Below, piece by piece: positions 8,063 to 28,196 of a stretch of 64,000 bases of DNA. The translations under genes and the position numbers were made by a program. How positions within the stretch are numbered: position 1 is the stretch's first letter; every line of letters begins with the position of its first letter. Under the pieces are notes generated by a model. It was given only the letters and a program-made list of their open reading frames with translations. It was not told the DNA's origin and searched no databases. The stretch covers positions 1-64,000 of the IMG/VR virus record IMGVR_UViG_3300042483_000380. The stretch is one strand, 5' to 3'. The DNA is from a virus.

Positions 8063-8097
8063 ATAAAAATAAATTTACAAATAAAAAAGACAAACTA

Positions 8098-11000
8098 ATG
8101 GCATCAAATCAAAAAGTATTCGTATCTCCCGGAGTATATACTTCTGAAGTTGATTTAAGTTTCGTAGCACAAAGTGTGGGAGTTACCACGTTGGGTATTG
8201 TGGGTGAGACCTTAAAAGGTCCCGCTTTCGAGCCTATCTTTATACGAAATTTTGATGAATTCACAAATTTCTTCGGTGGAACTTCTCCAGAAAAATTTAT
8301 AAATACACAAATTCCAAAGTACGAAGCGGCTTATATTGCTAAATCATACTTACAACAATCTAACCAATTATTCGTAACAAGAGTGTTAGGATTATCTGGT
8401 TACGACGCAGGACCATCTTGGTCTATCACCACAAAAGCGAATGTTAACCCGACAACGGTTGATTTCTTTTGTGAAAGTGCAACTACAGTTAATTGTGTTA
8501 CTGAATGTATAGACTTTAAAACTATAAACTATTCTGTTGAATTTTCAGCGTGTACTAATAGTATTAACACTGTTAGTTTTACAAACACATCTAGTTTACC
8601 ATCTGAAATATCTTCAATTTTGTATGAACCTTACGAACAATTTGATGGTTCAATGTCAACATTGTTTGATGATATGTCAAGTCAAATTTTTGATATCGTT
8701 TCAACACCGGCTAAAGAAGACACTTCAATTAATTATTATGGTGCAATACCAACTAGTGTTTATTCGGGTTTAAGTTCAGTATATACTGGTGAAACTAATG
8801 TTTACGGAGTGGATAATGTAAGTTCAAATTTATGTAATTATTCAGCACCTCAAAATGACCCTTGGTATTACTCATTATTTGATAATGTTGGTAATGCTTC
8901 TTATACAGGATTTTCATTTTGGTCTGTTGTTACAGGATTAACATTGACACCAATAATTACAACAACAACATCAACTTCAACGACGACATCAACAACAAAC
9001 CCTTGTACAACAACAACATCAACATCAACTACGTCAACAACAACAGCAAAACCTGTTAATTGTTATACAGGTACATTGATTGGGGTGATTTATATTTATT
9101 CGGGTACGGCATATACAGATTATGATGACTTAGTTGTTGCAACACTTCGTTCAAGAGGATTGTCAACATATGGTTTGGAAAATGGACCTGTTTATGAAGT
9201 TTCGGGTTTAACGGATGTTAGTTTAGATTGTACCGGGACATATTCAGGTGTAACTAAGAACCCATTTTCAACTTTTGGTGTTAATATTACAAGTAAAGAT
9301 GGTGACCAATATTTCTTTGAAACATCATTATCAAATTCAGATTCAAAATATATTAGTAAAGTGTTTGGTTCAACTAACTTCTCAAAACCAAGAACAGTAG
9401 TTCCATTATTTGTTGAAGAAAGATTCCAAGCTTTATTAACGAATGCTTGGAGAATGGGTTATATTAGAGGTTTAAATTGTGAATTAACAGCTTTACCTGA
9501 TGCTCGTCAATCGATTGACCCAACATCAATAGCTTTTTACTTAGAAAAATTCCAATCACCGGTTTCTCCGTGGGTTGTTTCAGAATTAAGAGGTAATAAA
9601 GTTTATAACTTATTTAAATTTACAACTATTGCAGATGGTGATTCAGCAAATATTGATATTAAAATATCAATTGCAAATATGTCATTTAACAATGGTACTT
9701 TTGATGTATTAATTAGAGATTTCTTTGATACTGATTCATCACCTGTTGTTCTTGAAAAATACACTAATTGTAGTATGAACCCTCAAGATAATTCATTTGT
9801 TGGTAAAAAAATTGGTAGTTTAGATGGAGAATATCCTTTATTGTCAAGTTATGTTATGGTTGAAATTAACGAGGATGCACCAATAGATGCTCTTCCTTGT
9901 GGATTCTTAGGATACGATTATAGAGAATATGCTGGTGTAAGACCACCATTCCCATTAATTAAATCTAAATATTATTATCCTGGTGAAGTAGTTTATAATC
10001 CACCGTTTGGGTTAGCTTCAGGAGCGGATGATTCAACAACAAGTGCTGGTGATAATGTAAGAAGAACTTATTTAGGTATTTCAGATACTGAAGGTATTGA
10101 TGTTGATTTCTTCCAATATAAAGGAACTCAACTTCCTTTAGATATTTGTAATGATACTGAAGGTAATCCTTGGAATTTTAGAACAAGAGGTTTCCACATG
10201 GACAAAAACGCAAGTGGTATTACAATTCCAAATATATTTGTAACAAGTGGTACTCCGGCATTCTTTTGTGGTGACGCACCATTTACATCAGACCCTGATA
10301 GTGAACTTAACCCTTATTATAGAATTTACGCACGTAAATTCACATTCTTAGTAAAAGGTGGTTTTGATGGTTGGGATATCTATAGAGAATTTAGAACAAA
10401 TAAAGATGAGTTTATGTTAGGTAGAAAAGGTTATTTAAATGGTTCCTGTCCTACTATCAAATATCCTACGGCATCAGGTTGGGGAGCATTTAAACAAATT
10501 ATTGTTGCTGGTAACACTCAAGATTGGGCAAACACCGATTATTACGCTTATTTATTAGGTCAACAAACATTTGCGAATCCTGAGGCGGTAAACATCAATG
10601 TGTTTGTAACACCGGGTATTGATTATGTTAATAACTCTAATTTAGTTGAGAGTGCTATTGATATGATTGAATATAGTAGAGCGGATTCGTTGTACGTATG
10701 TACAACTCCTGACTACAATATGTATGTTCCGTCAACAGGTAATCAATTAGATTTTATTTACCCACAAGAAGCTGTAGATAATTTGGCAAATTCAGGTATT
10801 GACTCTAACTATACCGCTACTTATTACCCTTGGGTGTTAATGAGAGATACTGTTAACAATACTCAGATTTACTTACCGGCAACTGCTGAGGTAACAAGAA
10901 ACTTAGCGTTAACGGATAATATTGCATTTCCTTGGTTCGCTGCGGCGGGTTACACAAGAGGTATCGTAAACGCTGTTAAAGCGAGAGTTAAATTGACACA

Positions 11001-11424
11001 AGAGAATAGAGATACTTTATATCAAGGTCGTTTAAATCCAATCGCAACGTTCTCTGATGTTGGAACTGTAATTTGGGGTAATAAAACTCTTCAAGTTAGA
11101 CAATCAGCTCTTGACAGAATCAACGTAAGAAGATTATTACTTCAAGCACGTAAATTAATATCGGCAGTTTCTGTTAGATTATTATTTGAACAAAACGATG
11201 CTAAAGTAAGACAAGATTTCTTAGATTCTGTTAACCCAATATTAGACTCTATTAGAAGAGATAGAGGTCTTTATGATTTCCGTGTAACTGTTTCGTCTGA
11301 CGCAGCTGATTTAGACAGAAATCAAATGACTGGTAAGATTTATATCAAACCAACCAAATCGTTAGAATTTATAGACATTACGTTCTATATTACTCCAACC
11401 GGAGCTTCTTTCGAGAATATATAA
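8098..11424 (+). CDS. Contractile tail sheath protein (gp18-like)
   Basis: The sheath surrounds the tube and contracts to drive it through the envelope. The N-terminus (VFVSPGVYTSEVDLSF, then GIVGETLKGPAFEP) and the last 300 residues (including FPWFAAAGYTRGIVNA and the NVRRLLLQARK to GKIYIKPTKSLEFI stretch) are typical of T4-type sheath proteins. At 1108 residues it is far larger than T4 gp18 (659). The excess is a central insertion that includes a Thr/Ser-rich linker at about residues 288-316. The start at 8098 (MASNQKVF) is preferred to an ATG at 8038 that lies before the promoter-like element. A hairpin follows the stop. Confidence 0.95.
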   Translation: MASNQKVFVSPGVYTSEVDLSFVAQSVGVTTLGIVGETLKGPAFEPIFIRNFDEFTNFFGGTSPEKFINTQIPKYEAAYIAKSYLQQSNQLFVTRVLGLSGYDAGPSWSITTKANVNPTTVDFFCESATTVNCVTECIDFKTINYSVEFSACTNSINTVSFTNTSSLPSEISSILYEPYEQFDGSMSTLFDDMSSQIFDIVSTPAKEDTSINYYGAIPTSVYSGLSSVYTGETNVYGVDNVSSNLCNYSAPQNDPWYYSLFDNVGNASYTGFSFWSVVTGLTLTPIITTTTSTSTTTSTTNPCTTTTSTSTTSTTTAKPVNCYTGTLIGVIYIYSGTAYTDYDDLVVATLRSRGLSTYGLENGPVYEVSGLTDVSLDCTGTYSGVTKNPFSTFGVNITSKDGDQYFFETSLSNSDSKYISKVFGSTNFSKPRTVVPLFVEERFQALLTNAWRMGYIRGLNCELTALPDARQSIDPTSIAFYLEKFQSPVSPWVVSELRGNKVYNLFKFTTIADGDSANIDIKISIANMSFNNGTFDVLIRDFFDTDSSPVVLEKYTNCSMNPQDNSFVGKKIGSLDGEYPLLSSYVMVEINEDAPIDALPCGFLGYDYREYAGVRPPFPLIKSKYYYPGEVVYNPPFGLASGADDSTTSAGDNVRRTYLGISDTEGIDVDFFQYKGTQLPLDICNDTEGNPWNFRTRGFHMDKNASGITIPNIFVTSGTPAFFCGDAPFTSDPDSELNPYYRIYARKFTFLVKGGFDGWDIYREFRTNKDEFMLGRKGYLNGSCPTIKYPTASGWGAFKQIIVAGNTQDWANTDYYAYLLGQQTFANPEAVNINVFVTPGIDYVNNSNLVESAIDMIEYSRADSLYVCTTPDYNMYVPSTGNQLDFIYPQEAVDNLANSGIDSNYTATYYPWVLMRDTVNNTQIYLPATAEVTRNLALTDNIAFPWFAAAGYTRGIVNAVKARVKLTQENRDTLYQGRLNPIATFSDVGTVIWGNKTLQVRQSALDRINVRRLLLQARKLISAVSVRLLFEQNDAKVRQDFLDSVNPILDSIRRDRGLYDFRVTVSSDAADLDRNQMTGKIYIKPTKSLEFIDITFYITPTGASFENI
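8959..9048 (+). repeat. ACN-rich low-complexity tract encoding a Thr/Ser linker in the sheath
   Basis: About 30 codons are almost all Thr or Ser (aca, act, tca, acg), broken once by NPC. The DNA is a degenerate trinucleotide array inside the sheath gene, and Cys residues flank the second half. It looks like a flexible linker between surface domains. Confidence 0.75.
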
Positions 11425-11482: not shown

Positions 11483-12301
11483 ATGTTAAAAAATAAAATA
11501 ATTGAAGGAATTGACGAGGAAGGTGCTCCGGATGAGAAGTATTACGCTTTTGATTGGGACGATAATATAGTTTCAATGCCAACTAAAATAATCTTAAAAG
11601 ATGAAGATGGTGATGAGGTTGGAATGTCAACTGAAGATTTCGCAACTTATAGAGAAATTATAGGTAAGGAACCATTTGAATTTGATAAACACACCATTGT
11701 TGGATTTTCAGAAGACCCTTTTAGATATTTCGGGGTTAAAGGTGATAAACAATTTATTGTTGATTCTATGTTAGCAAAACCGGGACCGGCTTGGGCTGAT
11801 TTTGTTGAAGCAATTAATAATGGGTCAATTTTTTCTATAGTTACTGCGAGAGGGCACACACCATCAGTATTAAAAGAGGCTTGTTATAATTATATTGTAT
11901 CAAACCGTAATGGAATTAATTCAACTGAGTTAGTTAAAAATTTAGAAAAATATAGAGATTTAGCTGATGAAGAAAATGTTTCTAAAAAGGAGATGATTAG
12001 AGAATATTTAGATTTATGTAAATTTTATCCTGTAAGTTATGGAGAAGGTTCCGCAACAAATCCGGAAGAAGGGAAAATTAAAGCTTTAAAAGAATTTGTT
12101 CAATATGTTAAAGCAATGTCTCAACATATTCAAAAAAAGGCGTTCTTAAAAAATAAAATAAATAATTATTTTGTTCCTAAAGTAGGTTTTTCAGATGACG
12201 ACATAAAAAATGTGGATGTAGTAAAGAAACATTTTGAGCAAGACCCAGAAAATATTATTAAAACTTATTCAACAGCAGGAGGAATAAAAAAAGAATATTA
12301 A
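11483..12301 (+). CDS. HAD-superfamily phosphatase-like protein
   Basis: A 272-residue protein with HAD motifs: motif I FDWDDN with Asp24 as nucleophile and Asp26 as acid/base, motif II IVTARGH (Thr near 120), and a late VGFSDDD segment (near 234-240) as the acidic metal-binding motif IV. A helical cap-like stretch lies between motifs II and IV. T4 polynucleotide kinase 3'-phosphatase is one HAD relative in phages, but no kinase domain is present. The substrate could be a nucleotide, a nucleic-acid 3' phosphate or a protein. It sits alone between sheath and tube genes, an unusual place for an enzyme. Confidence 0.75.
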   Translation: MLKNKIIEGIDEEGAPDEKYYAFDWDDNIVSMPTKIILKDEDGDEVGMSTEDFATYREIIGKEPFEFDKHTIVGFSEDPFRYFGVKGDKQFIVDSMLAKPGPAWADFVEAINNGSIFSIVTARGHTPSVLKEACYNYIVSNRNGINSTELVKNLEKYRDLADEENVSKKEMIREYLDLCKFYPVSYGEGSATNPEEGKIKALKEFVQYVKAMSQHIQKKAFLKNKINNYFVPKVGFSDDDIKNVDVVKKHFEQDPENIIKTYSTAGGIKKEY

Positions 12302-12480: not shown

Positions 12481-12969
12481 ATGGCTGATTTATTAATGAA
12501 AATGCCCATACCTTACGAACCTAAAAGACAAAATAGGTTTATTCTACGTTTTCCTTCAACATTAGGAATTAATGAATGGTTCGTAGAATCGGCAGCAAGA
12601 CCACATATAACAATTAATCCTGTTGCGATTCCATTTTTAAACACTGAAACATATGTTGCAGGTCGTTTTACATGGGGTACAATTAACGTTAAATTTCGTG
12701 ACCCAATTGGTCCGTCAGCGTCACAAGCTCTTATGGAGTGGGTACGTTTATGTGCTGAATCAGTTACCGGACGTATGGGATATGCTGCGGGATATAAAAA
12801 GAATATTGACCTTGAAATGTTGGACCCAACAGGTGTTGTTGTGGAAAAATGGATATTAGAAGGGACTTTCTTATCTGATGTTAATTTTGACGCTTTAGGG
12901 TATAGTCAAGATGCTTTAGCAACTATTTCTACAACATTACGTATGGATAGATGTATATTAGTTTACTAA
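12481..12969 (+). CDS. Tail tube protein (gp19-like)
   Basis: The tube is the inner channel of the tail through which DNA passes. At 162 residues it matches T4 gp19 (163). The pattern PYEPKRQNRFILRFPS, then NTETYVAGRFTWGTINVKF and PIGPSASQALMEWV is typical of T4-type tube proteins, with a C-terminal strand (LEGTFLSDVNF) and a final LRMDRCILVY. It is a single-gene unit, with an upstream promoter-like element and a strong terminator, as suits a protein needed in high copy number. Confidence 0.92.
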   Translation: MADLLMKMPIPYEPKRQNRFILRFPSTLGINEWFVESAARPHITINPVAIPFLNTETYVAGRFTWGTINVKFRDPIGPSASQALMEWVRLCAESVTGRMGYAAGYKKNIDLEMLDPTGVVVEKWILEGTFLSDVNFDALGYSQDALATISTTLRMDRCILVY

Positions 12970-13083: not shown

Positions 13084-13839
13084 ATGGATGAGAGTTTAAT
13101 TAATGCAGGAACAGAAAATTTCACATTACCACATGATGTGGTATCATTACCTAGTGGTGGAATTTTTTATAAATCTAAAAGAAAATCGGTTAAAATCGGT
13201 TACTTAACAGCGTCTGATGAAAATTATTTAATTGGTGCGCTAGCGGGTAAAGAAAATGTGGTATTAACTTTATTACGTAATAAATTATATGAACATGATT
13301 TACGTCCTGAAGAACTACTTGATGGTGATGTTGAAGCTATTTTGATATTTTTAAGAAATACTTCGTTTGGCGCTGAATACACAGTTAATTTAACTGACCC
13401 ACAAACTAACAAATTATTTACTCATACTGTTATATTGGATGAGTTAAATATTAAAAAAACCCAAAATCAACCGGATGAAAATGGATTTTTCTTAACTAAA
13501 TTACCTAAAACAGGTATTACTGTTAAATTAAGACCAACAACTTTCTATGATACTATTGAGTTAGATAAAATGGTTGAACAATATCCTGCAGGAAGACAGG
13601 CACCAAGAATTACTTGGAAATTACAAAAACAAATTGTTGAAATTGATGGGGATAACGATAGAGGTAAAATAGCTATGTTTGTAGATACTTTACCAATTAT
13701 GGACTCTAAATACATAAGAACTTTTTTAAGGGAGAATGAACCGTCATTGGACCTTAAGAGAACAGCAAACGCCCCGTCAGGAGAACTGGTATCTTTCGAG
13801 ATAACCTTTGGGGTGGAGTTTTTTCGGCCTTTCTTTTAA
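13084..13839 (+). CDS. Tail assembly chaperone / baseplate hub assembly protein, gp26-like
   Basis: A 251-residue protein of the T4 gp26 (T4_baseplate) type: an N-terminal LPSGGIFYKS, a helical core with DGDVEAILIFLRNT, and an ending FEITFGVEFFRPFF close to the GxxFFxP ending of this family. It lies just before the tape measure gene, where tail assembly chaperones are usually found. The last sense codon and stop read TTT TAA C, and a second frame (+1) continues with a conserved-looking extension, so a longer frameshift product of 298 residues is likely. The start follows a TATTTATAA element with no Shine-Dalgarno sequence. Confidence 0.78.
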   Translation: MDESLINAGTENFTLPHDVVSLPSGGIFYKSKRKSVKIGYLTASDENYLIGALAGKENVVLTLLRNKLYEHDLRPEELLDGDVEAILIFLRNTSFGAEYTVNLTDPQTNKLFTHTVILDELNIKKTQNQPDENGFFLTKLPKTGITVKLRPTTFYDTIELDKMVEQYPAGRQAPRITWKLQKQIVEIDGDNDRGKIAMFVDTLPIMDSKYIRTFLRENEPSLDLKRTANAPSGELVSFEITFGVEFFRPFF

Positions 13840-13981
13840 CTATCGGCAACTTCTAATTGAGGAATATTACTTGATGGCTAAATTTATAAGGACTTCTTAT
13901 AATGATTTCAACGAGATGCCCACTTATGTTAGAAAATTTTTAATAAACAGAATAATAGAAGATAATACACCAAAGACGTAA
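13838..13981 (+). CDS. gp51-like extension read by probable +1 frameshift
   Basis: After the gp26-like stop, the +1 frame stays open for 47 codons, starting NYRQLLIEEYYLMAKF and including DFNEMPTYVRKFLINRI. An MPxxxR(K/R)(F/Y) block of this kind is what I recall from the T-type half of tail chaperones and gp51-like proteins. The slip site is TTT-T-AAC at 13834-13840: a Phe tRNA on TTT can re-pair on the overlapping TTT while TAA waits in the A site, as in the RF2 +1 shift. An independent start at ATG 13874 (35 residues) is the alternative. The stop lies inside a 14-bp hairpin. Confidence 0.68.
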   Translation, partial: NYRQLLIEEYYLMAKFIRTSYNDFNEMPTYVRKFLINRIIEDNTPKT

Positions 13982-15959: not shown

Positions 15960-18900
15960 ATGGCAGAGAGTTCATTATCATTTGCGTCCACGTCTTCCTT
16001 TAGAAATTCTCTAATGGCGAAAAACTTGGCACCTTATAGTGTTCAAGGAGTGTACACCCCACCGGCAAATCAAGTTAATTACGAAACCATTTTAGGTGTA
16101 AGTAATGTTATTGATTCACCAGGTGAGTTAATAACGAATGACCCATATGGTAATTTATTATATCCATTAAACGAATATGGACCTAATGGTGGGTATAATT
16201 TAGAAATTAATTTTAACGGACCTCCTTTACCTGTAAATTCAAATCAGGGGGAATATAACCCCAACGACACAGCGTTAGACTTACTTAATGAATTTTTTAT
16301 TGATGCTGCTTATATTCAAAATGGGTATGGACCGTCGGGTGGTTATAATGATTTAGTTATTATAACAGATGTTGAAAATAACAATAAGATATATCAACCT
16401 TATTGGGAACCACCAAGTTTTGCTCCATCAACTTATTCGCCTTATAATATTTTATTATCAAATAATCCTATTGGAAGTAATGGGTTGCTATCTCAGGATT
16501 CTTTTATTGCGAGATTTGGAGCTCTTGAATTAAATTCGTTATTGAAAAAAAGAATTGATGCTGAATTATTTCAAAACACATTAGGTCAAATAAATTTACA
16601 ATCTCTACAAGACCCGTTTGAGATTAGTATGATGTTGTCAGGTCAACAACCTTTAATTTATAAAAATTGGAAGATTACAGTGCCTGAAAACCCTGTTGTT
16701 GCCGCTGCCGACTTCTTAACAAGATTGGCGGGTGCTTATTGGCCAGTTTCATTAATACCGGGAGATTATTTCAATGATAATAACGAAAATAGTCAAACAC
16801 AACAAACATCAAATGCTTTAAGTACTGTTAATCAATTAACAGGTGGTTTATTAGGTCCAATATTAAATCTTAGTAGAGGTGGTTCACAAATATTTTTAGC
16901 CAACACAGGTAACGGACAAAGGTCAGTTTTATTTGCAAATATTAATTATAATAGATATCAACCATCATACGATAAAGATTATGGTTTATTATTTGGGGTT
17001 GCTCAAGGTCTTGTTAATTTATTAGTTCCAAATATTAATCCGGGTAATGGTACATTAGTTGGAGGTTATTATGTTGGTAATAGAACATCTGAACCTTCTT
17101 ACATTACATCACCCCCAAATCAAATACCGGTTAACGCATTTGGTCAACAAGACCCTTCACCTGTATATGGTCCATCAGAGATGGGTATTTTATATGAAGG
17201 TAATGAATCAACACTTAACAATTTTGGTTTAGGAGGTAAGTCCTATAGTGACGGTGGGGGTATTGACGGAGGATTTGTTTGGGTATCTCCAAAATATAAA
17301 GCCAATGCTGGATTCAGAGCGATACCGGGTGGTGGTTCCGGAACTATGGATGAGGACTATCAATTGGTTAGTGGAAACATCACTAGAGATGAATCAACAA
17401 ACATTGAATTTAAATCAACATCAATATTAGACCAAACTCAAAGATTAATTGATTCGGCTGATAGTGTTACGGGTATTGCTCGATTGAAACACGTTGGTAA
17501 CGCAATGAATCAGATTAGTAAGGTATTCAATGATGGTTATAAAGAAATTACTAAAGGTTCTCAAGTTTTATCGTATACTGATAATACAACAGGTGGGGCT
17601 GCCGGTATTGAATATTGTAGAGTTTTCACAAAAGATAATCCTTATTACGCATATAATGATTTACAAAAAACAGATGGTATAACTACATCAGGTAGAAGAT
17701 TTACTCATTCTGTTTTGGATAACACATATAATTTGAATATTACTCCATTAAGAAATCCGGGCTCAACAAACATTATTGCGAATAATGTTAATGGAACGGG
17801 GGGATATGCTAAAAAATATATGTTCTCAATTGAGAATTTAGCTTGGAGAACATCAAGTAGACCTGGATTTACTTATGATGAATTACCTGTTTGTGAGAAA
17901 GGTCCAAATGGTGGTAGAGTTATGTGGTTTCCTCCGTATGATTTAAAGTTTTCAGATAGTAGTACTGCTAATTGGAATGATACTTCTTTCTTAGGTAGAC
18001 CTGAACCAATTTACACATATAAAAATACAAGTAGAACAGGGAGTTTAAGTTGGAAGATTATTGTTGATAGTCCATCTGTAATGAATGCTGTTGTGGAAAA
18101 ACAATTAAAAGGACAAAATAAAGAAAGGATTAATTCAATTATTGATTCATTTTTTGCTGGTTGTGTTAAGTATGATATTTATGAATTGGCGTTAAAATTT
18201 AATACTATACCAACAAAGGATTTATATACGTATCAAGAGATTTTAAGTAAACCAAATTTAACGAATGAAGAATTAAAAAGTGTAAGTGCTAGTATTCCAA
18301 GAGAAAATTCTGTAACTCAAGGAGGTGCGGGAACGCCTGGTGATGCAACAAATAGTACGACAAATCCGGATACTTCAATTGACGATTTCAAAAAGAATTA
18401 TTCTCAGTTAGCGTTTTATTTTGATAATGATATTCCTGACCCAAACTCAAAAGGTGTTGTTTCTTCAGTTCCTTATAATGAAACATATGAAACATATACT
18501 AGTGACGGAAATATTAAAACATATGTTGATACTGCAAGCGCAATTTTTAATGTTGGTGTTACTAATAGAAATGTTGGGGAGTTCTTTACTAATATTGTTA
18601 AGGATAATTATAAAAAAATTGCACTTAATGATAAAAACTTCATTGTTGACGCTTATAACATATTAAAAGAAAAAAAAGGTACTATAAATATTCAGATGGT
18701 TGGTTCAGCATCAGCAACTGCTAGTGTACCGTATAACACAAATTTATCTAAACGAAGAAATGATTCGGTTATCCAATTTTTGAAAGAGTATAAAATAGGT
18801 GAAGCTAATTTAGCACCATTTTTTGAAAATGGAACTTTACAAATTACATTACAAAGTGGTGAAGGTGAAAAAATATCTATTCCTCAAAGTGAGTCTGGTA

Positions 18901-20975
18901 CGGGAACGCAAGTTGAATGTACTAAAAATGTTGTATCATCATCGGGTACAGATGTTTCTAACAAAAAAGCTGAGACATATTCAACAGATGCTATGGCATG
19001 TAGAAGAGTTAAAATTAATAGTATTGCAATTGCACCAATTGCTCCAACAACTATAGTAAAACCACCTGAAAAGGCGGAAATAATAACGCCTGAAGTGACC
19101 AATACAACAATTAATACGATTAAACCTGTTCAGACAGTTACAATTGAACAAAAATTAAAAGAAGGTATTGGGAAAAGAATTATTAGACAATTATTAACTG
19201 AATGTGACTATTTTGATGTTATTAAAGAAACTAATCCTATGGTATATGGGTCTATAGCGGATAAAATTAAATTTTTCAATCCCGCTTTTCACTCTATGAC
19301 ACCTGAAGGTTTAAATTCTAGACTTACATTTTTAAATCAATGTGTTAGACCTGGTGAAACAATTCCTGTGATAGGCGCGGACGGTAAACCAAAATATAAT
19401 GATGCGGTTAATACTTCATTTGGAGCGCCACCGGTATTAGTATTGAGAATTGGGGATTTCTATAACGGAAAAATAATTCCAAAAACAATATCATTTACAT
19501 ATGAACCATTATTGTTGGATATGAATCCGGAAGGAATTGGTATTCAACCGATGTTAGCTAACGTAAATTTAAGTTTTGATATGATTGGTGGTATGGGACT
19601 TGCTAGACCTGTCGAACAATTACAAAACGCGTTGTCATTTAATTTCTACGCAAATACTGAAATTTATGATGAAAGGGCTAAATGGACAGAAGATACTTCA
19701 GCGTTAGATGCTACATTAATCCAATCAATATTAAATGCTCAACCACCGGTTACTGTTAATAATGTTCAAAATGAAATTACTAATGATGGTGGAAATACTA
19801 TTGGTGACATATTAACTAACATTCCGGTTACTAGTGGTCAAACAGGGGAAATTACCTATATGAGTATTATGGATAAAATATTAGATGCTACGAAAGAATA
19901 TTATACAAATGTTTTAAATCAAAGTGATAGTATTGTGAAATCATACAATTATGGTGTGTGGCAATTAATAACTCAGGATAGATTGTATACTTCGGGAGAA
20001 ATAAGTTTAAATTCTAGTAGTATATTAGCTCCAATTTATGGAAAACCGGAAGGTGTTGAAACTAAAGTGGATTCATTATTTAGTACATTTATATCAGATA
20101 TTAATGCTGATAATCCAACTAATCAAAATTATATAATATCAAGATTAGTGGGTTATAAATTTACAGATGCGACAATTCAACGAGTTAAAACAAATATGAA
20201 TCAATATATTACCACATTAAAAGGGGGTTATAGTAGTGGTTTATTCACTAAAATTCAAGAAATTGTAATATTAGAACAAAGTATGGTTCAAATTATTAGA
20301 AAAATAAATTTAGTAACAACTAAAACGGATGGTAAAATTTTAGACACCGGGATTCCTCGTGTTTATACTATTTCAGGTACAACCGAAGTTAATACCGCTA
20401 GTCTTGGGTCTCCATTAGACACATATCAAGAATTGTGTGATGACTATCGTTTAGTTGGTATTAGATTAGACGATTTTAATGTGTTAATGGATGCTGAAAA
20501 AATAATTACAACAGTTACTGTACCATATGAAGGTCCTGGTGAATTTGAACCAATTTCAAAAGATTTTGCAACAGCGTCAGTTCAGGATAAAAGACAATTT
20601 ATGGTAATGGCTCAAATATTTAATGATAAAAATAAATTAACACAATTTAAGAATGCTATCATTAGCGGAGAATTAAAAAGTGATAATAAATTAGTTAGAA
20701 AATTTAATAATATTTGTGATGATTTTGCCGATTTAACTAAAAAAGAATTAATTGCTGAAGAAAAATTTATTAAAACGATTAAAGGAAAAGAATCTTATTT
20801 AAAATTTGTAAATCAACCGGCTTATCCTAAAGGTAAATTGAGAAAGTTTACTTATACTACGGTTCCTGACCCTGCAACTGAAACACAACAAAAAACAGAT
20901 ATTGCTAATTTATATAAAACTGTAAATGTTAATAATGATAAATTAACGTTTGATGGTAAAATAAAATTTGATTAA
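15960..20975 (+). CDS. Large baseplate / tube-cap-like protein with OmpA-like domain
   Basis: A 1671-residue structural protein. Its position after the tape measure matches gp48/gp54 of T4, which cap the tube at the baseplate. A segment near residues 1180-1240 (SFTYEPLLLDMNPEGIG, then LQNALSFNFYANTEIYDERA) looks tube-initiator-like. About residues 880-1020 hold an OmpA C-like peptidoglycan-binding domain, with INIQMVGSASATASVPYN, then NLSKRRNDSVIQFL, ending near ACRRVKINSI. The first 800 residues are Asn/Gly/Tyr-rich and not recognised. The combination suggests a baseplate part that grips peptidoglycan during infection; that role is inferred. Confidence 0.68.
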   Translation: MAESSLSFASTSSFRNSLMAKNLAPYSVQGVYTPPANQVNYETILGVSNVIDSPGELITNDPYGNLLYPLNEYGPNGGYNLEINFNGPPLPVNSNQGEYNPNDTALDLLNEFFIDAAYIQNGYGPSGGYNDLVIITDVENNNKIYQPYWEPPSFAPSTYSPYNILLSNNPIGSNGLLSQDSFIARFGALELNSLLKKRIDAELFQNTLGQINLQSLQDPFEISMMLSGQQPLIYKNWKITVPENPVVAAADFLTRLAGAYWPVSLIPGDYFNDNNENSQTQQTSNALSTVNQLTGGLLGPILNLSRGGSQIFLANTGNGQRSVLFANINYNRYQPSYDKDYGLLFGVAQGLVNLLVPNINPGNGTLVGGYYVGNRTSEPSYITSPPNQIPVNAFGQQDPSPVYGPSEMGILYEGNESTLNNFGLGGKSYSDGGGIDGGFVWVSPKYKANAGFRAIPGGGSGTMDEDYQLVSGNITRDESTNIEFKSTSILDQTQRLIDSADSVTGIARLKHVGNAMNQISKVFNDGYKEITKGSQVLSYTDNTTGGAAGIEYCRVFTKDNPYYAYNDLQKTDGITTSGRRFTHSVLDNTYNLNITPLRNPGSTNIIANNVNGTGGYAKKYMFSIENLAWRTSSRPGFTYDELPVCEKGPNGGRVMWFPPYDLKFSDSSTANWNDTSFLGRPEPIYTYKNTSRTGSLSWKIIVDSPSVMNAVVEKQLKGQNKERINSIIDSFFAGCVKYDIYELALKFNTIPTKDLYTYQEILSKPNLTNEELKSVSASIPRENSVTQGGAGTPGDATNSTTNPDTSIDDFKKNYSQLAFYFDNDIPDPNSKGVVSSVPYNETYETYTSDGNIKTYVDTASAIFNVGVTNRNVGEFFTNIVKDNYKKIALNDKNFIVDAYNILKEKKGTINIQMVGSASATASVPYNTNLSKRRNDSVIQFLKEYKIGEANLAPFFENGTLQITLQSGEGEKISIPQSESGTGTQVECTKNVVSSSGTDVSNKKAETYSTDAMACRRVKINSIAIAPIAPTTIVKPPEKAEIITPEVTNTTINTIKPVQTVTIEQKLKEGIGKRIIRQLLTECDYFDVIKETNPMVYGSIADKIKFFNPAFHSMTPEGLNSRLTFLNQCVRPGETIPVIGADGKPKYNDAVNTSFGAPPVLVLRIGDFYNGKIIPKTISFTYEPLLLDMNPEGIGIQPMLANVNLSFDMIGGMGLARPVEQLQNALSFNFYANTEIYDERAKWTEDTSALDATLIQSILNAQPPVTVNNVQNEITNDGGNTIGDILTNIPVTSGQTGEITYMSIMDKILDATKEYYTNVLNQSDSIVKSYNYGVWQLITQDRLYTSGEISLNSSSILAPIYGKPEGVETKVDSLFSTFISDINADNPTNQNYIISRLVGYKFTDATIQRVKTNMNQYITTLKGGYSSGLFTKIQEIVILEQSMVQIIRKINLVTTKTDGKILDTGIPRVYTISGTTEVNTASLGSPLDTYQELCDDYRLVGIRLDDFNVLMDAEKIITTVTVPYEGPGEFEPISKDFATASVQDKRQFMVMAQIFNDKNKLTQFKNAIISGELKSDNKLVRKFNNICDDFADLTKKELIAEEKFIKTIKGKESYLKFVNQPAYPKGKLRKFTYTTVPDPATETQQKTDIANLYKTVNVNNDKLTFDGKIKFD

Positions 20976-20977
20976 TT

Positions 20978-21304
20978 ATGGGTACTAAAGATTATTATAA
21001 TAGATACAATAATTTTATCGTTAATGGACAACAAACAGTTGTACCATATATTGCTCTGCCAAGTAAATCTACAGACAAAAGATATATTTTTAAAGTTGCT
21101 CAATCTAGATTAGATAAAGTTTCTCAACAATATTATGGTAGTCCTTTCTTTAGTTGGTTAATATTACAAGCAAATCCACTATATGCTGGTCAAGAGTGGA
21201 ATATCCCCGATGGGGCTATCTTGACAATACCCTATCCTTTAATAGCGTCTTTACAGGATTACAACAATGACCTAGAAAATTACTTCTTTTATTATGGTAG
21301 ATAA
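20978..21304 (+). CDS. Baseplate wedge protein, gp53-like, with LysM-type fold
   Basis: A 108-residue protein. YIFKVAQSRLDKVSQQYYG followed by SPFFSWLILQANP and IPDGAILTIPYP matches the gp53 / LysM pattern: a strand, two helices with YYG, a Trp-containing helix ending in NP, then IP...I.IP. In T4, gp53 (196 residues) links wedges to the central hub. Here only the LysM-like core and a short tail remain. It starts two bases after the previous stop and overlaps the next start by 11 bases. Confidence 0.68.
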   Translation: MGTKDYYNRYNNFIVNGQQTVVPYIALPSKSTDKRYIFKVAQSRLDKVSQQYYGSPFFSWLILQANPLYAGQEWNIPDGAILTIPYPLIASLQDYNNDLENYFFYYGR

Positions 21305-24300
21305 ATCGGAAAATATATTAGTTGAGTTTGATTATAATAACATATCAATCATTGACCCAAATAAAGTTATAGATAATGACGGAAAAGTACAAGAACGATA
21401 TGTTAAGCAGGAAAATTTAGTAATGTATGCTAATTTGGAGTGTAAAGTTTTACCTCGTACCAAATTAGCACTTGGTGTTGCAAATAACGACCAAGTACAA
21501 ACAGTTTCAATAGCCACTATTAATTTTTTAAAACCGGGTGATAAAACATTTCTAGATAATTCGTATACAGATGAATTAACCGGTAAAGATACGATAAAAG
21601 GTAATGGTGTAAATCAACCAAAACTAACATCAGTTTCAAACCCAAATAAAAGTAGCGATTTTTACATTAGACAAACTATTAATTCAGGGGGTAAACAAGC
21701 CTCAGTTGATAATGGATTGTTGGGTATTACATCAATTAATATTAGACAAGGTTTAGATTTTTTACCTTCAATCACTATTGAATTAGAAGATGTTAAAGGT
21801 AGAGCCATGTTTGAGGCGGGTGATAATTCACCATACGCCGCATTTTTTAATTTACCATATCCAATGTTTCAATTAACAATAAAAGGGTTTTATGGTAAAG
21901 CGGTTAAATTAAAATTAATGTTACAAACATTTTCAACTAGATATGACACATCTAATGGAAATTTTAAAATTAAATTACAATTTTTTACTTACAAATATAC
22001 ATTGTTAAGTGAGGTACCTATGGCGGCATTAATTGCTGTCCCACATATGTATCAATCTAGAGTTAATATACAAACAGTTAAAGGGGGTTCTAGTAATTTT
22101 TCAAACGTCCAAGATTCTATTGTTTCAAGAGGGTATCAAAAAGTTAGAGAGTTATATAGTGAATATAAATCAAAAGGTATGATACCTGATGATTTTCCTG
22201 AAATTACTGTTGTACAAATGAAAAATAGGATTGAAAATTTTATTAAAAATATTTTATCTTCATTTTCACAACAAAATTTAGACCCATTAACTTATGTTGA
22301 AGAATATCAAAGATTGTTGGGTAATTTAGATAAGGATGTTTATGCCGGTGCCGGAACTTCATGGTTTTATACATATATGGATACTGAAAATTATTTAGTT
22401 ATGAAAGGTGTTAATGGTGTTAATGGAATTACTGAAGGTAGTAAGGTGTATACATTTAAACCTGAAATAAATACTGCTACAAAAAGAGATGCCGCTTTGG
22501 CTAAACTACAAGGTATTATTAGTGAAGCTCAAGAAAAAATGGATAAAAATCCTGTTTGTGGTGTTAATGGTAAATATACCATTGATGGTAAAACAAATAC
22601 TGATTCAAAAGTACCATTTAAAATTAAACCAAGTATATTTCCCGTAGAACCAAAAGAAAACGATGTTAATGTTGAAGAAACCTATCGTCAAAGAAAAAAA
22701 TTATCAACACAACCAACACCATTACAACTTCAGGAATTTAAAAATCAACTAGCAACTGAAGGAATTTTTAATTCATTAGTGATAGTAAATAAAAAAGGTT
22801 CTGAAGAAAAAAAATTCCTATTTTATATATTTGAGGGTAAAGATAGATTTGAAGATTTAATTAATCAAATGGCTACACTTGTTAAAAAAGCTAAAGAAAA
22901 TATTCAAGAAGAATTAACAGAGGCTTTAACTAATTTATTACAAAAGAAAGATAATGGTATTGGATTTGTTCCAAATATTAGAAATGTATTGGCGGTTATT
23001 TTTGCAAATGGTGAAGCATTCCTAAGATTAATGGATGATGTTCATGTACAAGCTTGGAATTTAAATGATACACAAATTAAAGCCAGAAGAAACTCAATTT
23101 TAAATCCTGAAACAGCAAATGCTTCTGTAGATAATTTAACATCTGGTGATAATAAAACATTACCAATATATCCTTGGCCTCAAATGTTGACAGCGACTTC
23201 AGGTAAAGATGGTCGTGAAAAATTTGAATTAACTTATCCGGGAGATAAAAATGTTATAAGTCAAACTAAAGCGTATTTAACAGATTTATGGCCTGAAGTT
23301 GAATTTGTTGAAGAATTTATTAGAGCAACAACTCAAACAGTAAAACCACCGGCTGACCCGACAGAAACCTCAAATCCTGTAACCGACATTCAAAGAGTTT
23401 CGTTAGACGCAATTGAATTTCCAATTAGTAATGCTGTTTATGATAATAAAGAAGAAATTAAATATTTTTATGAAATATTTGAAAGAATATTTTTAACATC
23501 TAACTACTCAGGTTTATTAAGAAGTAATGGTAATACTCAGGATGCGGATAAAGTAACAGACGTTATCGCTGAAGCAGAAAGTATTAATATTATTCAAAGT
23601 TTATCAAATGATAATCCTTTTATTATTAAAAAATTAAAAGAGTTTGGTGTTAATGCGGGTAATTTTGAAATTTTGATGAGACATATCTCAAATGATGGAA
23701 CAGGTGAGAGTTGGCAGAACTTTATTAGAGGTATCTTTAATACATCATATATTAAAAACAAAGTTAATAATTCTAGTTTTGAATTTTTAAGTCAAAATTT
23801 ATTAAATGAATCTAAATCACAACCATTAGTTTCTTTACCGGGTGAAAAAAATATTAATGATTTTATATCAAATTCAACATCAAGTAATGTTTTTAATTTA
23901 ACTGACACATATCCATTTACAAATTTTGCTTGGGTTAAAAGTGAGTTGGCGAATGGTAATTCAATTTCTGATATTAAATCATCGTATAATACAACAAAAG
24001 TGTTAACGTATAATACTAATAAAAAAATAATATCTAATTTTTTAGATATTACTAATGATGATAATAGAAGACCTTTTACTAACTTTTTATTTAATAATAT
24101 TAAATCCCCAATTTATTATTTTGATTTAAAATTATTTTATGAAAATAGAAGTTTTGATTCTCAATTACCGACAGAAGGTAATTTAAGATATTTAAATTAT
24201 TCAGGATTGGTGTCAAGTAACCAAACTGTGTCAATGTTAAACACTCCATATTTTACTAATTCAATTCAAGAAGGTGTTAAAAATTTTAGAAATGGGAGTG

Positions 24301-27300
24301 AATATCCATTTGTGGCGTCAGCTTATTTGTTTTTAAATAGTTTACCATTATCAACGCTTAGAGAAAAGTACAAAACTTATGAGACAAATTCCGTAACGGA
24401 TTTAGACTATATTTTTGCAACGCTTAAAAAATTTGGTGCGGTACATAAATTACCATATGCTTGGATATTAAAAATTGGTTCTGTTTGGAACCGATATAAA
24501 AATTTTGTTGAGACAGGTGTTGATATTATTGATACATCGTGGTCCGGATTTAGTTATGTGCATAATTATGACCCTGTTACAAATTCTGCATCTAGAAATT
24601 ATGGGTTAACAATTAACGGAGCTCAAATGGATATTGTATTAGAAAAAAATACAACATTAGGTCTTGAGACATCATCATTAATGAATACCGGATTTTACCC
24701 ATTATTGATTAATGATTTTAATGTGTTTTATCAAGGGTTCCAAATTTATTCAGGTTATACCGATACCGATATTCAAAATGGGTTTAGTTCAGGTGTTACA
24801 TTAAATTATGTGCCTGAAGCGATTATTAATATGCCAGAAGGGTTTGACCCGAATAATCCAAAAAGAGATTTAAGGGTTATTCCCTGGTCAGTTTATATTA
24901 CAACATTAGATAAAACTTCATCATATATTATCCCATCACAAGGTGCTTTAATAAATCAGACAAGTAATGAATGTATTACTGAGGAAACAAATCAATTAAA
25001 ATATGAGATAACTGGAAATACGGCAATGTATAATGGTTCTGTTAGATTATTTTGGTCGGCGCCTAACTATGGGTATTTTGATATTACTAAAGTTGTAAAA
25101 CCAACACCTCTAAAATATTTAAAACAAGTTTTTAATCTTACCGGAAATACTAAACAAGAAAATTTTTCTATTAATGGAAAACAAGATGATTACACAGAAA
25201 TTAGTGAAATGTTCTCAGTATTTGAAAAAGAAATTTTAGATAGTTTTGAGTCAGAATTTTTAAATTTTTCAAAATCAATTTATGATTTTGATAGTGAGTT
25301 TATATCAAACAGTGATACAGAAAGTACAAAATCCTTTAAGAATTTTCAAATGTTAATGAGAAATTTAATGAAAATACCTAAAATAACTGGTACGACAATA
25401 AATACTGAATTAGTTTCGGCTGTCCAAGAATCTCAATTAACTGTTTTATCTAACCTTTTACAATCATTTTTAAATTATGACGTGGTTTTTAAATATGGTA
25501 ATCCGGCAAGTTTTGATAAAAGATTATTTTATACTTTTTCAAATGGGTTGATTGCTGACCCATATACGTGGAGTAAATACTCATTTCAAATACCAACTCC
25601 ATTGCCGACATCAGGTGGTACAGTTACACTATCTCAATCTATTACTAACTATCCAAACGAATGGAAGGCGTTACAATTATATGTAGGGTTTTCAGAGATA
25701 CCTCAATTACGTTATAGTAATAATGGTTCTTATATAACTGATTTCTTTGTTGATTGTAATATAGATTTTAGTGTTGATAATATTAAAACTTTTGCACCAA
25801 TTATTAAAATTTATGCGACTCAAAAATTAAATGATAATACTTTAACATATAATAAATTTGTTAAATTAATGAATGAGTATATTGCGAGTACGGATAAATT
25901 TCAAAGTATTATTATTAATAAATTAATGCCTAAATTACAAAAACAATTACCGGATGTTGGTAGTACACCAGACGCTGTTTTGGCAACAGCTTTAGAAGGT
26001 CCTCAAACAAAATTAGAATATTGGGAATCATTTAAAGCATTAAATGATAAATGGATTGCGGGAAATGATTTTAAAACTAAGACACTTTTTGAAGATATTT
26101 TATTGATGGATAGAGCAAATAGAAATATTGGGGATAAAGTGTTAGTAGATATTCATAAATTGAAAAAAACGTTGACAAATATAAATCCTAAAACAAGTAT
26201 GTTGATTTTTGTCCAAGATATTTTAGTAACAAATAATTTTGTTGTTATGAATATACCGTCTTATGTTAATTTTTATAATGTACAAGATGCCGTTAAAAAT
26301 CCTGTACCAAAACCGGAAGGGACTATTGATTTTGCGAATACAATGTTTGGAACATTTTTAAATGTTGATTATAGAAATTCTTCGGCTAAAATGGTTTGTT
26401 TTTATGCTGGAAAACCAAGTGAACAACCGGATTTTAAAAATAATGCTAACGTAAGATTTAAAGGGGATTCCTTTGATTTAAGAAGAGCGAGTGATAATCC
26501 ATTAATTGAAGACCAAATAGGTAAACAAGATTGGGATAAATCTAATAAAGTTGTTGGGTTTAATGTTGATGTGGGACCACAAAATCAATCAATTTTTCAT
26601 GGGTTCCAAATAGACCAAAGTGCGGGGCAAGCAACTGCGGAGTCATTACAACAAACAGATGAATTAGTTAAACAATCGTCAGGTAAAGCGGCTGGTACTC
26701 AAAATGTTTCATTATATAACTTATATAAAAATAGAAGTTATGCTTGTACTGTATCTATGATGGGTAATGCAATGATTCAACCAACAATGTATTTTAATTT
26801 AAGACATGTACCAATGTTTAGTGGGGCATATATGATTCAGGAAGTTAATCATAGTATTGGTCCGGGAACATTTGAGACAGTTTTTAAAGGTATTAGGCAA
26901 TCCATTTCAAATTTACCGGAAATTGATAGTTACATCCAAACATTAAAAACTAATTTATTAACGTCTATTATTGAGAAAAACAAACAAGATAAACAAGCGG
27001 CGATAAAAGAAAGTGGTACAAAAGGAACTGATGTTATTAGTCAAGCTAATGACAAGGTTAAACAAGCATCATCTAAAGAAGCTAATAGTGTGTCAACTAA
27101 TCCAAATTGTAAACCAAAAATAAGTAATTATGAAAAATATGTTAATGTTAGTTCTCCAACAACAACTAAATCTAAATATAAAGATGCTATCAGTACAATT
27201 ATAGTTCAAACTCAAGACCAAAAATTAAGGTATTTAGTTTTTGCGGCGATTTATTTAGGTTCGTCAAATGGAACTGAATTAGAAACAAAAGAAAATAACT

Positions 27301-28196
27301 ATTCAGGTGTTAATTTATTACAAAATTGGGGTGCCACAGGAGAATCGTACTTTAATCAACAATATTATTGTATTTCAAGTGATGAGCCTTATTCAATTTT
27401 TTCAGATTTATCAAAACACGTTACCTTTTTAATTCAAAGATGGAAAGGTAGAGTTACACAATTACCTGAAATAACTGCTAAAGAGATTACTAAATTTTAT
27501 ACATTATATTTTTCGGCAAATGCTGAAAATATTGATGTTTATAACAAATTGGTTAAAGATAATCCGAGTCAATTAAGTCAGATGGAAACTAGTGTTCAAC
27601 AATCTATTGACCTATTTAAAACCGGTAGTGGAAATGTAAGTGGGACGCCACCACCAAATACACCACCAACTACAAATAGTAATGAGGCACTTTTTGAAAA
27701 TGCTAAAAAATTTAATACGGATTCGTTAGATAATCTTGTAATAAAAAATGATGTTCTTAGTGGTAGTTTTGAGGTTGGCAATCAAGATGAATTATTAACC
27801 CAAGACTATCCCGCTAAATTATATATTTCAGGAGGAATGAATAATGTGCAAATTGGTGCTTTTACAATAAAACCGACAACTAATAAAAATGTTGGAACAT
27901 TTGTTTCTGTTACTAATATTAATGAAATTTTAGAAACGGCTAGAAATGACAAAACATATGAATTTACGCTTATAATTAAAATTAATGCGTTTCCGGATAT
28001 TAGGTATGGATATTCAAGAGTTCTTTTACCAATTAGTTGTCCGGATGAAGATTATAAATATGGTCAAATAGTTGAGGTGGGTAAATGGGAGGCAATTAAA
28101 GATAATATTTGTTGTAATTGTTATAGTGAACCATATACAGGTTCAGAGATTATTTGGGACGGAAAACCGTGTTCAAGAAACGGAACAACATGTTAA
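21294..28196 (+). CDS. Giant baseplate hub protein with probable peptidoglycan hydrolase domain
   Basis: At 2300 residues this is the largest gene. The N-terminal ~300 residues (GITSINIRQGLDFLPSITIE, then FQLTIKGFYGKAVKLKLMLQ) and a domain near 1790-1890 (YACTVSMMGNAMIQPTMYF, then VPMFSGAYMIQEVNHSIG) look like the split halves of a gpD/gp27-type hub. Residues of about 1960-2100 resemble a glucosaminidase or lysozyme-like domain (AAIYLGSSNGTELE, then ENNYSGVNLLQNWG, then SIFSDLSKHVTFLIQRW). The last 200 residues follow a Pro/Thr linker and form an unrecognised domain with a CCNC cluster. It would pierce the envelope like T4 gp27-gp5, but in one chain. Confidence 0.75.
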   Translation: MVDKSENILVEFDYNNISIIDPNKVIDNDGKVQERYVKQENLVMYANLECKVLPRTKLALGVANNDQVQTVSIATINFLKPGDKTFLDNSYTDELTGKDTIKGNGVNQPKLTSVSNPNKSSDFYIRQTINSGGKQASVDNGLLGITSINIRQGLDFLPSITIELEDVKGRAMFEAGDNSPYAAFFNLPYPMFQLTIKGFYGKAVKLKLMLQTFSTRYDTSNGNFKIKLQFFTYKYTLLSEVPMAALIAVPHMYQSRVNIQTVKGGSSNFSNVQDSIVSRGYQKVRELYSEYKSKGMIPDDFPEITVVQMKNRIENFIKNILSSFSQQNLDPLTYVEEYQRLLGNLDKDVYAGAGTSWFYTYMDTENYLVMKGVNGVNGITEGSKVYTFKPEINTATKRDAALAKLQGIISEAQEKMDKNPVCGVNGKYTIDGKTNTDSKVPFKIKPSIFPVEPKENDVNVEETYRQRKKLSTQPTPLQLQEFKNQLATEGIFNSLVIVNKKGSEEKKFLFYIFEGKDRFEDLINQMATLVKKAKENIQEELTEALTNLLQKKDNGIGFVPNIRNVLAVIFANGEAFLRLMDDVHVQAWNLNDTQIKARRNSILNPETANASVDNLTSGDNKTLPIYPWPQMLTATSGKDGREKFELTYPGDKNVISQTKAYLTDLWPEVEFVEEFIRATTQTVKPPADPTETSNPVTDIQRVSLDAIEFPISNAVYDNKEEIKYFYEIFERIFLTSNYSGLLRSNGNTQDADKVTDVIAEAESINIIQSLSNDNPFIIKKLKEFGVNAGNFEILMRHISNDGTGESWQNFIRGIFNTSYIKNKVNNSSFEFLSQNLLNESKSQPLVSLPGEKNINDFISNSTSSNVFNLTDTYPFTNFAWVKSELANGNSISDIKSSYNTTKVLTYNTNKKIISNFLDITNDDNRRPFTNFLFNNIKSPIYYFDLKLFYENRSFDSQLPTEGNLRYLNYSGLVSSNQTVSMLNTPYFTNSIQEGVKNFRNGSEYPFVASAYLFLNSLPLSTLREKYKTYETNSVTDLDYIFATLKKFGAVHKLPYAWILKIGSVWNRYKNFVETGVDIIDTSWSGFSYVHNYDPVTNSASRNYGLTINGAQMDIVLEKNTTLGLETSSLMNTGFYPLLINDFNVFYQGFQIYSGYTDTDIQNGFSSGVTLNYVPEAIINMPEGFDPNNPKRDLRVIPWSVYITTLDKTSSYIIPSQGALINQTSNECITEETNQLKYEITGNTAMYNGSVRLFWSAPNYGYFDITKVVKPTPLKYLKQVFNLTGNTKQENFSINGKQDDYTEISEMFSVFEKEILDSFESEFLNFSKSIYDFDSEFISNSDTESTKSFKNFQMLMRNLMKIPKITGTTINTELVSAVQESQLTVLSNLLQSFLNYDVVFKYGNPASFDKRLFYTFSNGLIADPYTWSKYSFQIPTPLPTSGGTVTLSQSITNYPNEWKALQLYVGFSEIPQLRYSNNGSYITDFFVDCNIDFSVDNIKTFAPIIKIYATQKLNDNTLTYNKFVKLMNEYIASTDKFQSIIINKLMPKLQKQLPDVGSTPDAVLATALEGPQTKLEYWESFKALNDKWIAGNDFKTKTLFEDILLMDRANRNIGDKVLVDIHKLKKTLTNINPKTSMLIFVQDILVTNNFVVMNIPSYVNFYNVQDAVKNPVPKPEGTIDFANTMFGTFLNVDYRNSSAKMVCFYAGKPSEQPDFKNNANVRFKGDSFDLRRASDNPLIEDQIGKQDWDKSNKVVGFNVDVGPQNQSIFHGFQIDQSAGQATAESLQQTDELVKQSSGKAAGTQNVSLYNLYKNRSYACTVSMMGNAMIQPTMYFNLRHVPMFSGAYMIQEVNHSIGPGTFETVFKGIRQSISNLPEIDSYIQTLKTNLLTSIIEKNKQDKQAAIKESGTKGTDVISQANDKVKQASSKEANSVSTNPNCKPKISNYEKYVNVSSPTTTKSKYKDAISTIIVQTQDQKLRYLVFAAIYLGSSNGTELETKENNYSGVNLLQNWGATGESYFNQQYYCISSDEPYSIFSDLSKHVTFLIQRWKGRVTQLPEITAKEITKFYTLYFSANAENIDVYNKLVKDNPSQLSQMETSVQQSIDLFKTGSGNVSGTPPPNTPPTTNSNEALFENAKKFNTDSLDNLVIKNDVLSGSFEVGNQDELLTQDYPAKLYISGGMNNVQIGAFTIKPTTNKNVGTFVSVTNINEILETARNDKTYEFTLIIKINAFPDIRYGYSRVLLPISCPDEDYKYGQIVEVGKWEAIKDNICCNCYSEPYTGSEIIWDGKPCSRNGTTC

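Follow-up and report, generated by a model that had tools for sequence, protein, structure and literature searches.

The window, a stretch of 64,000 nucleotides that is part of a 66 kb virus record, carries a tail module in the order tail tube gene, G, T and an ORF at the tape-measure position (Table 1). G is a member of the PF12322 gp26/gp51 family. It matches PF12322 (T4_baseplate) in the Pfam search at 7e-9, above the curated cut-off, phrog_150 (baseplate hub) in PHROGs at 5e-11, and an alignment of cyanophage gp26 with an hhalign E-value of 7e-18. The tube gene just upstream also has a match to the Pfam family Phage_T4_gp19 at 1.4e-4, which is under the curated cut-off. The downstream ORF has no family match, but annotated tape measure genes follow the chaperone locus in Flavobacterium phage immuto and Listeria phage LIS04. 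The window, immuto, SP-15 and LIS04 all have a pair of overlapping ORFs that lies between the tail tube and tape measure genes, the window's tape measure being assigned by position only.

A protein identical to G is encoded on a 318 kb contig (L005), so the phage is probably a jumbo phage, a myovirus of about 320 kb. No tRNA genes were found in window positions 1-64000. The tail sheath protein (8095-11424) is very long, about 1109 aa, and its large insertion has a Thr/Ser-rich TTTTSTSTTTSTT stretch. Between sheath and tube lies a 272-aa ORF (11483-12301) to which Pfam gave no match and whose YAFDWDDNIVSMPTKI motif, by eye, resembles HAD-type phosphatases. The tail module also includes giant ORFs of 1671 aa (15960-20975) and 2300 aa (21294-28196), neither of which matches Pfam.

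Table 1. Features of the chaperone locus and its neighbours in the window
Feature	Position	Strand	Basis
Tail tube protein gene, gp19-like, upstream neighbour of G	12481..12969	+	phrog_4542, 3e-25
G, gp26-like tail assembly chaperone, 251 aa, 0 frame	13084..13839	+	PF12322, phrog_150, cyanophage gp26 profile
Synonymously frozen block, possible 5' stem, candidate +1 stimulator	13771..13814	+	RNAalifold; window group only
Frameshift element UUU UUU CGG CCU	13819..13830	+	Invariance across relatives
Most likely slip site UUU_CGG	13822..13827	+	Matches UUU_CGN; rare CGG; CGN in 49/50 loci
T, gp51-like domain, +1 frame, 51 codons past the predicted shift at 13822-13824	13826..13978	+	Conservation, model
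0-frame stop of the short chaperone, not the slip site	13837..13839	+	Position and identity vary in relatives
ORF at the tape-measure position, 631 aa	14027..15922	+	Position only

A gp51-like domain in the +1 frame

The 3' end of the G ORF reads CGG CCT TTC TTT TAA C and lies inside an ORF in the +1 frame. This frame is open from 13805 and runs for 47 codons beyond the 0-frame stop, including NYRQLLIEEYYL and MPTYVRKFLINRI, as the initial annotation recorded; it ends at a TAA at 13979-13981. Eighty relatives and further scans gave 50 distinct junctions in the window group (66-100% protein identity), 119 in the immuto group and 16 in the huge-phage group; one scan of bacterial genomes returned a single match, which was metagenome-assembled. 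The +1 frame stays open past the motif in all 50 window-group loci, and the other two frames over the same DNA contain stops in every one of them. It is also open in 117 of 118 aligned immuto-group loci, the closed one being L385. The rates in both frames, a comparison proposed with the initial annotation, gave dN/dS values of 0.13-0.20 for T, similar to those of G (0.13 vs 0.20 in the window group and 0.20 vs 0.19 in the immuto group). Synonymous variation in T is normal (observed/expected 1.13 and 1.06), and therefore the +1 frame appears to be read as protein. These comparisons indicate that the +1 frame is under protein-level selection, with its phase to G fixed.

The +1 part alone matches no Pfam or PHROGs family. 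Profile-profile alignment, also proposed earlier, links it modestly to cyanophage gp51 (E 8e-5, probability 61%, 41 columns). A direct comparison of T with T4 gp51 gave no significant match, and the link runs only through cyanophage gp51, which aligns with the T4 gp51 C-terminus at 2.6e-4. The claim that a programmed +1 shift joins gp26-like and gp51-like frames is thus supported by the profiles (8e-5 for T and 7e-18 for G) and by conservation. The predicted GT fusion has 298 aa whether the shift falls on UUU or on a nearby CCU, the two versions differing in their junction residues. T alone is modelled as three helices (pLDDT 83.5), and the AlphaFold2 model of the fusion, built with the CCU-shift junction, has a pLDDT of 85. 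The GT model resembles predicted viral baseplate hub proteins, for example that of SP-15 (3.5e-17), and has no PDB match with E below 0.3; a search of solved structures by sequence found nothing.

T could also be made without any frameshift, by separate initiation at TTG 13808 or ATG 13874. A TTG lies upstream in the +1 ORF in all 50 window-group loci, two relatives (L350 and L356) have separate T ORFs with an ATG, and T4-like phages are reported, as paraphrased in one source, to produce chaperones without frameshifting (PMC10885494). However, the conserved start at 13874 that the initial annotation had named as contrary evidence was not found, the ATG being missing in 28 of the 50 window-group loci. 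In 21 loci of the immuto group and 7 of the huge group, the +1 ORF offers no ATG, GTG or TTG upstream of its conserved part. Independent starts also leave unexplained the invariant UUU and CCU described below, and the fact that UUU is lost just where T starts from an ATG of its own. Independent initiation is very unlikely here and, as judged from the relatives, not general; the window group alone, where the TTG is always present, could not settle the question.

Three relatives that lack UUU (L350, L356 and L385) have no +1 T frame. In L350 and L356 (2209 onward in each) T begins at its own ATG, as a separate ORF in the -1 phase. This pair nests inside the +1 clade in a tree of G, so the separate ORF is derived, and the tree indicates that the pair is a natural loss of the frameshift within that clade, after the UUU run was lost. 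In L385 the T domain is absent from all frames shown after 2205, where by eye a terminator-like stretch is followed by a GIY-YIG-endonuclease-like reading frame.

The probable slip element

Just upstream of the G stop, UUU UUU and CCU are invariant in 50/50 window-group loci. The codon behind UUU is CGN in 49 of the 50 and is never AGA, the usual arginine codon: among the 20,067 codons counted in the window there are 444 AGA, 9 CGG (0.45 per 1000) and 2 CGC. A 0-frame UUU followed by a rare CGN is thus present at 13822-13827. UUU_CGN is established as a +1 motif, having been proved by mass spectrometry in influenza PA-X and proposed for amalgaviruses (PMC3498833, PMC5052127). In the immuto group the element TTT YTN TGG CCT is fixed, and of 77 conserved degenerate columns only UUU (-4) and CCU (-1) are without synonymous change. 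The codon behind UUU/CUU there is UGG, not CGN, and therefore the A-site trigger appears to differ in that group.

The initial annotation had placed slippage at the stop codon itself, on UUU-UAA (13834-13839), in the manner of RF2. The window's own UUU does overlap the UAA, with C next, but no RF2-like Shine-Dalgarno element adjoins it, and 35 of the 50 window-group loci have TTC before the TAA. In the immuto and huge groups the 0-frame stop lies 1-10 codons further on and varies in kind, against a fixed UUU-NNN-NNN-CCU (in the immuto group alone, it is 2 to 10 codons past CCT), so that a slip codon directly before the stop, as in RF2, is not a general feature. The first +1 codon after CCT (TCT, serine), which precedes the stop, is kept in 49 of 50 window-group loci, as is UUU CGN CCU further upstream across that group. 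The wandering stop, the TTC codons and the conserved +1 serine together argue that the stop codon is not the slip site, and a shift there is so improbable that we set it aside.

The +1 lineages found include phages of Streptococcus, Bacillus, Listeria, Streptomyces, Pseudomonas, Xanthomonas and Rhizobium, and in every one the Phe-Phe position holds UUU followed by C, U or A. The site reads TTT TTT CAC GCC in SP-15, TTT TTT AGT ACC in LIS04, TTC TTT CGT CCC in GXN1, and TTC TTT CCC TAA in QdP_Psa3 and phiXF1. The Streptomyces phages BRock, LuckySocke, pSt2308 and GiJojo (L258, 2726 region, and L443-L445) share CTG TTT CRN GAA CTC TRA, in which CRN is CGC in three and CAG in LuckySocke. Their conserved +1 T frame is annotated as separate hypothetical proteins or not annotated. 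Across these alignments UUU is the only element common to all +1 lineages.

These sites also bear on two other routes to the same frame. A backward slip by two bases on the U run would reach it, since UUU UUU permits re-pairing two bases back, and phage Mu gpGT uses -2 frameshifting (PMC3498833). The immuto-group UUU CUU UGG and the Streptomyces CUG UUU CGC nevertheless lack good -2 pairing, which makes a -2 slip highly improbable. Transcriptional slippage on the run of six T in the window could likewise yield an mRNA one base shorter or longer, but it is scarcely credible for a family in which neither TTTCTTTGG (immuto group) nor CTGTTTCGC (Streptomyces phages) contains a long run of T.

The alternative that needs most attention is a real +1 shift on the proline codon CCU (13828-13830), in which the Pro-tRNA moves from CCU to CUU. 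CCT is invariant in the 50 window-group and 118 immuto-group loci, where other invariant proline columns vary freely in codon, and proline codons are known +1 sites in the Listeria phages PSA, A118 and A500 (PMC5009743). This codon was initially preferred, and was downgraded because it is absent from other +1 lineages and kept in non-shifting relatives. SP-15 (GCC), LIS04 (ACC) and the Streptomyces phages (GAA CUC) have no CCU or CCC, and L350 and L385 retain CCT yet lack the +1 T frame, although three non-shifting cases are few. A CCU slip also leaves unexplained why UUU is invariant, why CGN is chosen and why U is avoided just before the UUU. CCU is a serious rival in the window and immuto groups, where it is as invariant as UUU; over the whole family a shift on it is unlikely. 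We infer that UUU_CGG is very likely the exact slip codon in the window, with CCU taking most of the remaining probability.

Sequences upstream of the slip element may also contribute. In the window group the ratio of observed to expected synonymous change falls to 0.45 over the last 25 codons of G, against about 1 elsewhere, and a frozen block of about 15 codons lies upstream of the element. It may form a stem in which GCCCC (13771-13775) pairs with GGGGU (13810-13814) and AGG (13779-13781) with CCU (13805-13807). The arms are nearly invariant and paired in 98% of cells; they show no covariation, as the pairs hardly vary, and the folding energy is not unusual against shuffles (z -0.08). The stem was not seen in the immuto group. 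Work with 70S ribosomes showed that hairpins upstream, next to the E site, promote +1 frameshifting and dampen the -1 kind (PMC6321510), and therefore this stem is a reasonable, if weak, candidate for a +1 stimulator. Downstream RNA structure was also considered and rejected, with no unusual stability and weak RNAalifold pairing.

Taken together, it is highly probable that a conserved +1 frameshift at UUU_CGG makes a chaperone pair of the lambda G/GT type from the gp26-like gene, so that both tail assembly chaperones would be encoded from one gene start. Most ribosomes would produce the short G and stop at 13837. A minority would move +1 at UUU_CGG: with the rare CGG still unread in the A site, the peptidyl-tRNA-Phe would leave UUU and re-pair with the overlapping UUC. 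Reading would then continue as GGC CUU UCU UUU AAC and so on, to give GT with its gp51-like T domain and, across the junction, the residues FFGLSFNYRQ. By analogy with lambda, G would serve to coat the tape measure protein and GT, in a fixed minority ratio, to bring in tail tube subunits; the efficiency of the shift, like the functions of the two proteins, is read from that analogy.

Direction of the proposed shift

The T4-type relatives, which include cyanophages, Vibrio, Aeromonas and Rhizobium phages, Methylophilales phage Melnitz and Agrobacterium phage Atu_ph07, share U_UUU_UUY over the same Phe-Phe pair, with the T domain in the -1 frame; one Rhizobium phage has UUG in place of UUY. In the cyanophages, the stretch of -1 frame that leads from the U run to the ATG annotated for gp51 reads R/Q-I/V-S, and the 0-frame codon varies. 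These relatives appear to slip backwards (-1) at codons homologous to those of the window. All 74 members of the -1 clade have U as the base just before the U run, as against 0/118 in the immuto group and 1/50 in the window group, where codon usage would predict 45.6 and 6.0, respectively; the loci counted are not independent of one another, forming 58 and 16 clusters at 85% identity. The U before UUU UUY that a -1 heptamer X_XXY_YYZ calls for is correspondingly present in one of the 50 window-group loci and in none of the 118 immuto-group loci. In the tree of G the -1 clade stands apart from the +1 clade, and Atu_ph07, on a long branch, falls with the +1 clade. It is somewhat favoured that a single ancient U-rich gp26/gp51 site came to support shifts in opposite directions, -1 on U_UUU_UUY in the T4-type phages and +1 on V_UUU (V = not U, with CGN behind in several lineages), with the base that precedes the run and the codon that follows it determining the direction.

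Relation to known chaperone systems

Frameshifting in tail assembly chaperones is known and is usually described as -1, and in T4 itself as having given way to separate genes. Vladimirov, Gautam and Davidson (Virology 566:9-15, 2022) reportedly described how the chaperones of T4-like phages are made without frameshifting. In lambda, too, gpG and gpGT come from a pair of overlapping frames that separates the tail tube gene from the tape measure position, and are a short major and a long minor chaperone, as predicted for the window. Lambda and most other chaperone frameshifts are -1, whereas the shift in the window is +1 and its G belongs to the gp26/PF12322 family.

The comparison with T4 is closer in homology. 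G matches the gp26 family, and the C-terminus of T4 gp51 matches the T domain of cyanophage gp51. T4 genes 26 and 51 are neighbours, as the initial annotation had it, but they lie on opposite strands. The cyanophage gp26 alignment matches T4 gp26 at 3e-19 and the N-terminal part of T4 gp51 at 1e-6. With a gp26-like N-terminal part and a T-like C-terminus, T4 gp51 (L088, 6480-7229) can therefore be read as a G-like part joined to a T domain, which would be a GT made by gene duplication, as the literature has already suggested. T4 would thus use a short gene and a separate gene, the latter with a G-like part and T, where the window has a single gene with a +1 shift. The published view of T4-like phages, as paraphrased in PMC10885494, likewise gives them one short gene and one longer, fused gene. 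The gp26-gp51 junction of the cyanophages and of the Vibrio and Aeromonas phages has a homologous Phe-Phe U run, with G and T homologous to those of the window, but the direction there is opposite (-1) and U precedes the run in every one of the 74.

The proposed decoding event itself resembles that of influenza A PA-X and the plant amalgaviruses, in which a UUU in the P site also gives way to UUC when a rare CGN occupies the A site; those are eukaryotic viruses, and the efficiency of about 1% was measured there. TTT-CGC has been proposed as a +1 site in the chaperone genes of the HF1-group haloviruses (PMC7230728). These likewise have a chaperone pair with a +1 shift and a UUU_CGN just 5' of the stop, the site in HF2 reading AAG TTT CGC AGA TAG. 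The HF2 chaperone has no detectable relation to the G family of the window (hhalign E 0.11, no PF12322 match), and the halovirus and gp26/gp51-family sites are probably convergent.

Chaperone frameshifting, the -1 shift in T4-like phages, UUU_CGN and the proposed halovirus UUU_CGC are known, and it is their combination in the gp26/gp51 family that appears to be new. Neither +1 frameshifting in this family nor a change of direction at a homologous site was found in the literature searched, a search that did not extend to the key 2022 paper on T4-like chaperones. The reading given here would correct the annotation of several relatives, in which the T part is either missing or entered as a hypothetical protein of its own. 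It would also place +1 slippage in the gp26/gp51 family in phages of many hosts, on a motif best known from influenza and plant viruses, and the +1 and -1 relatives, which appear to shift at homologous codons, would offer a natural comparison for what sets the direction of slippage.
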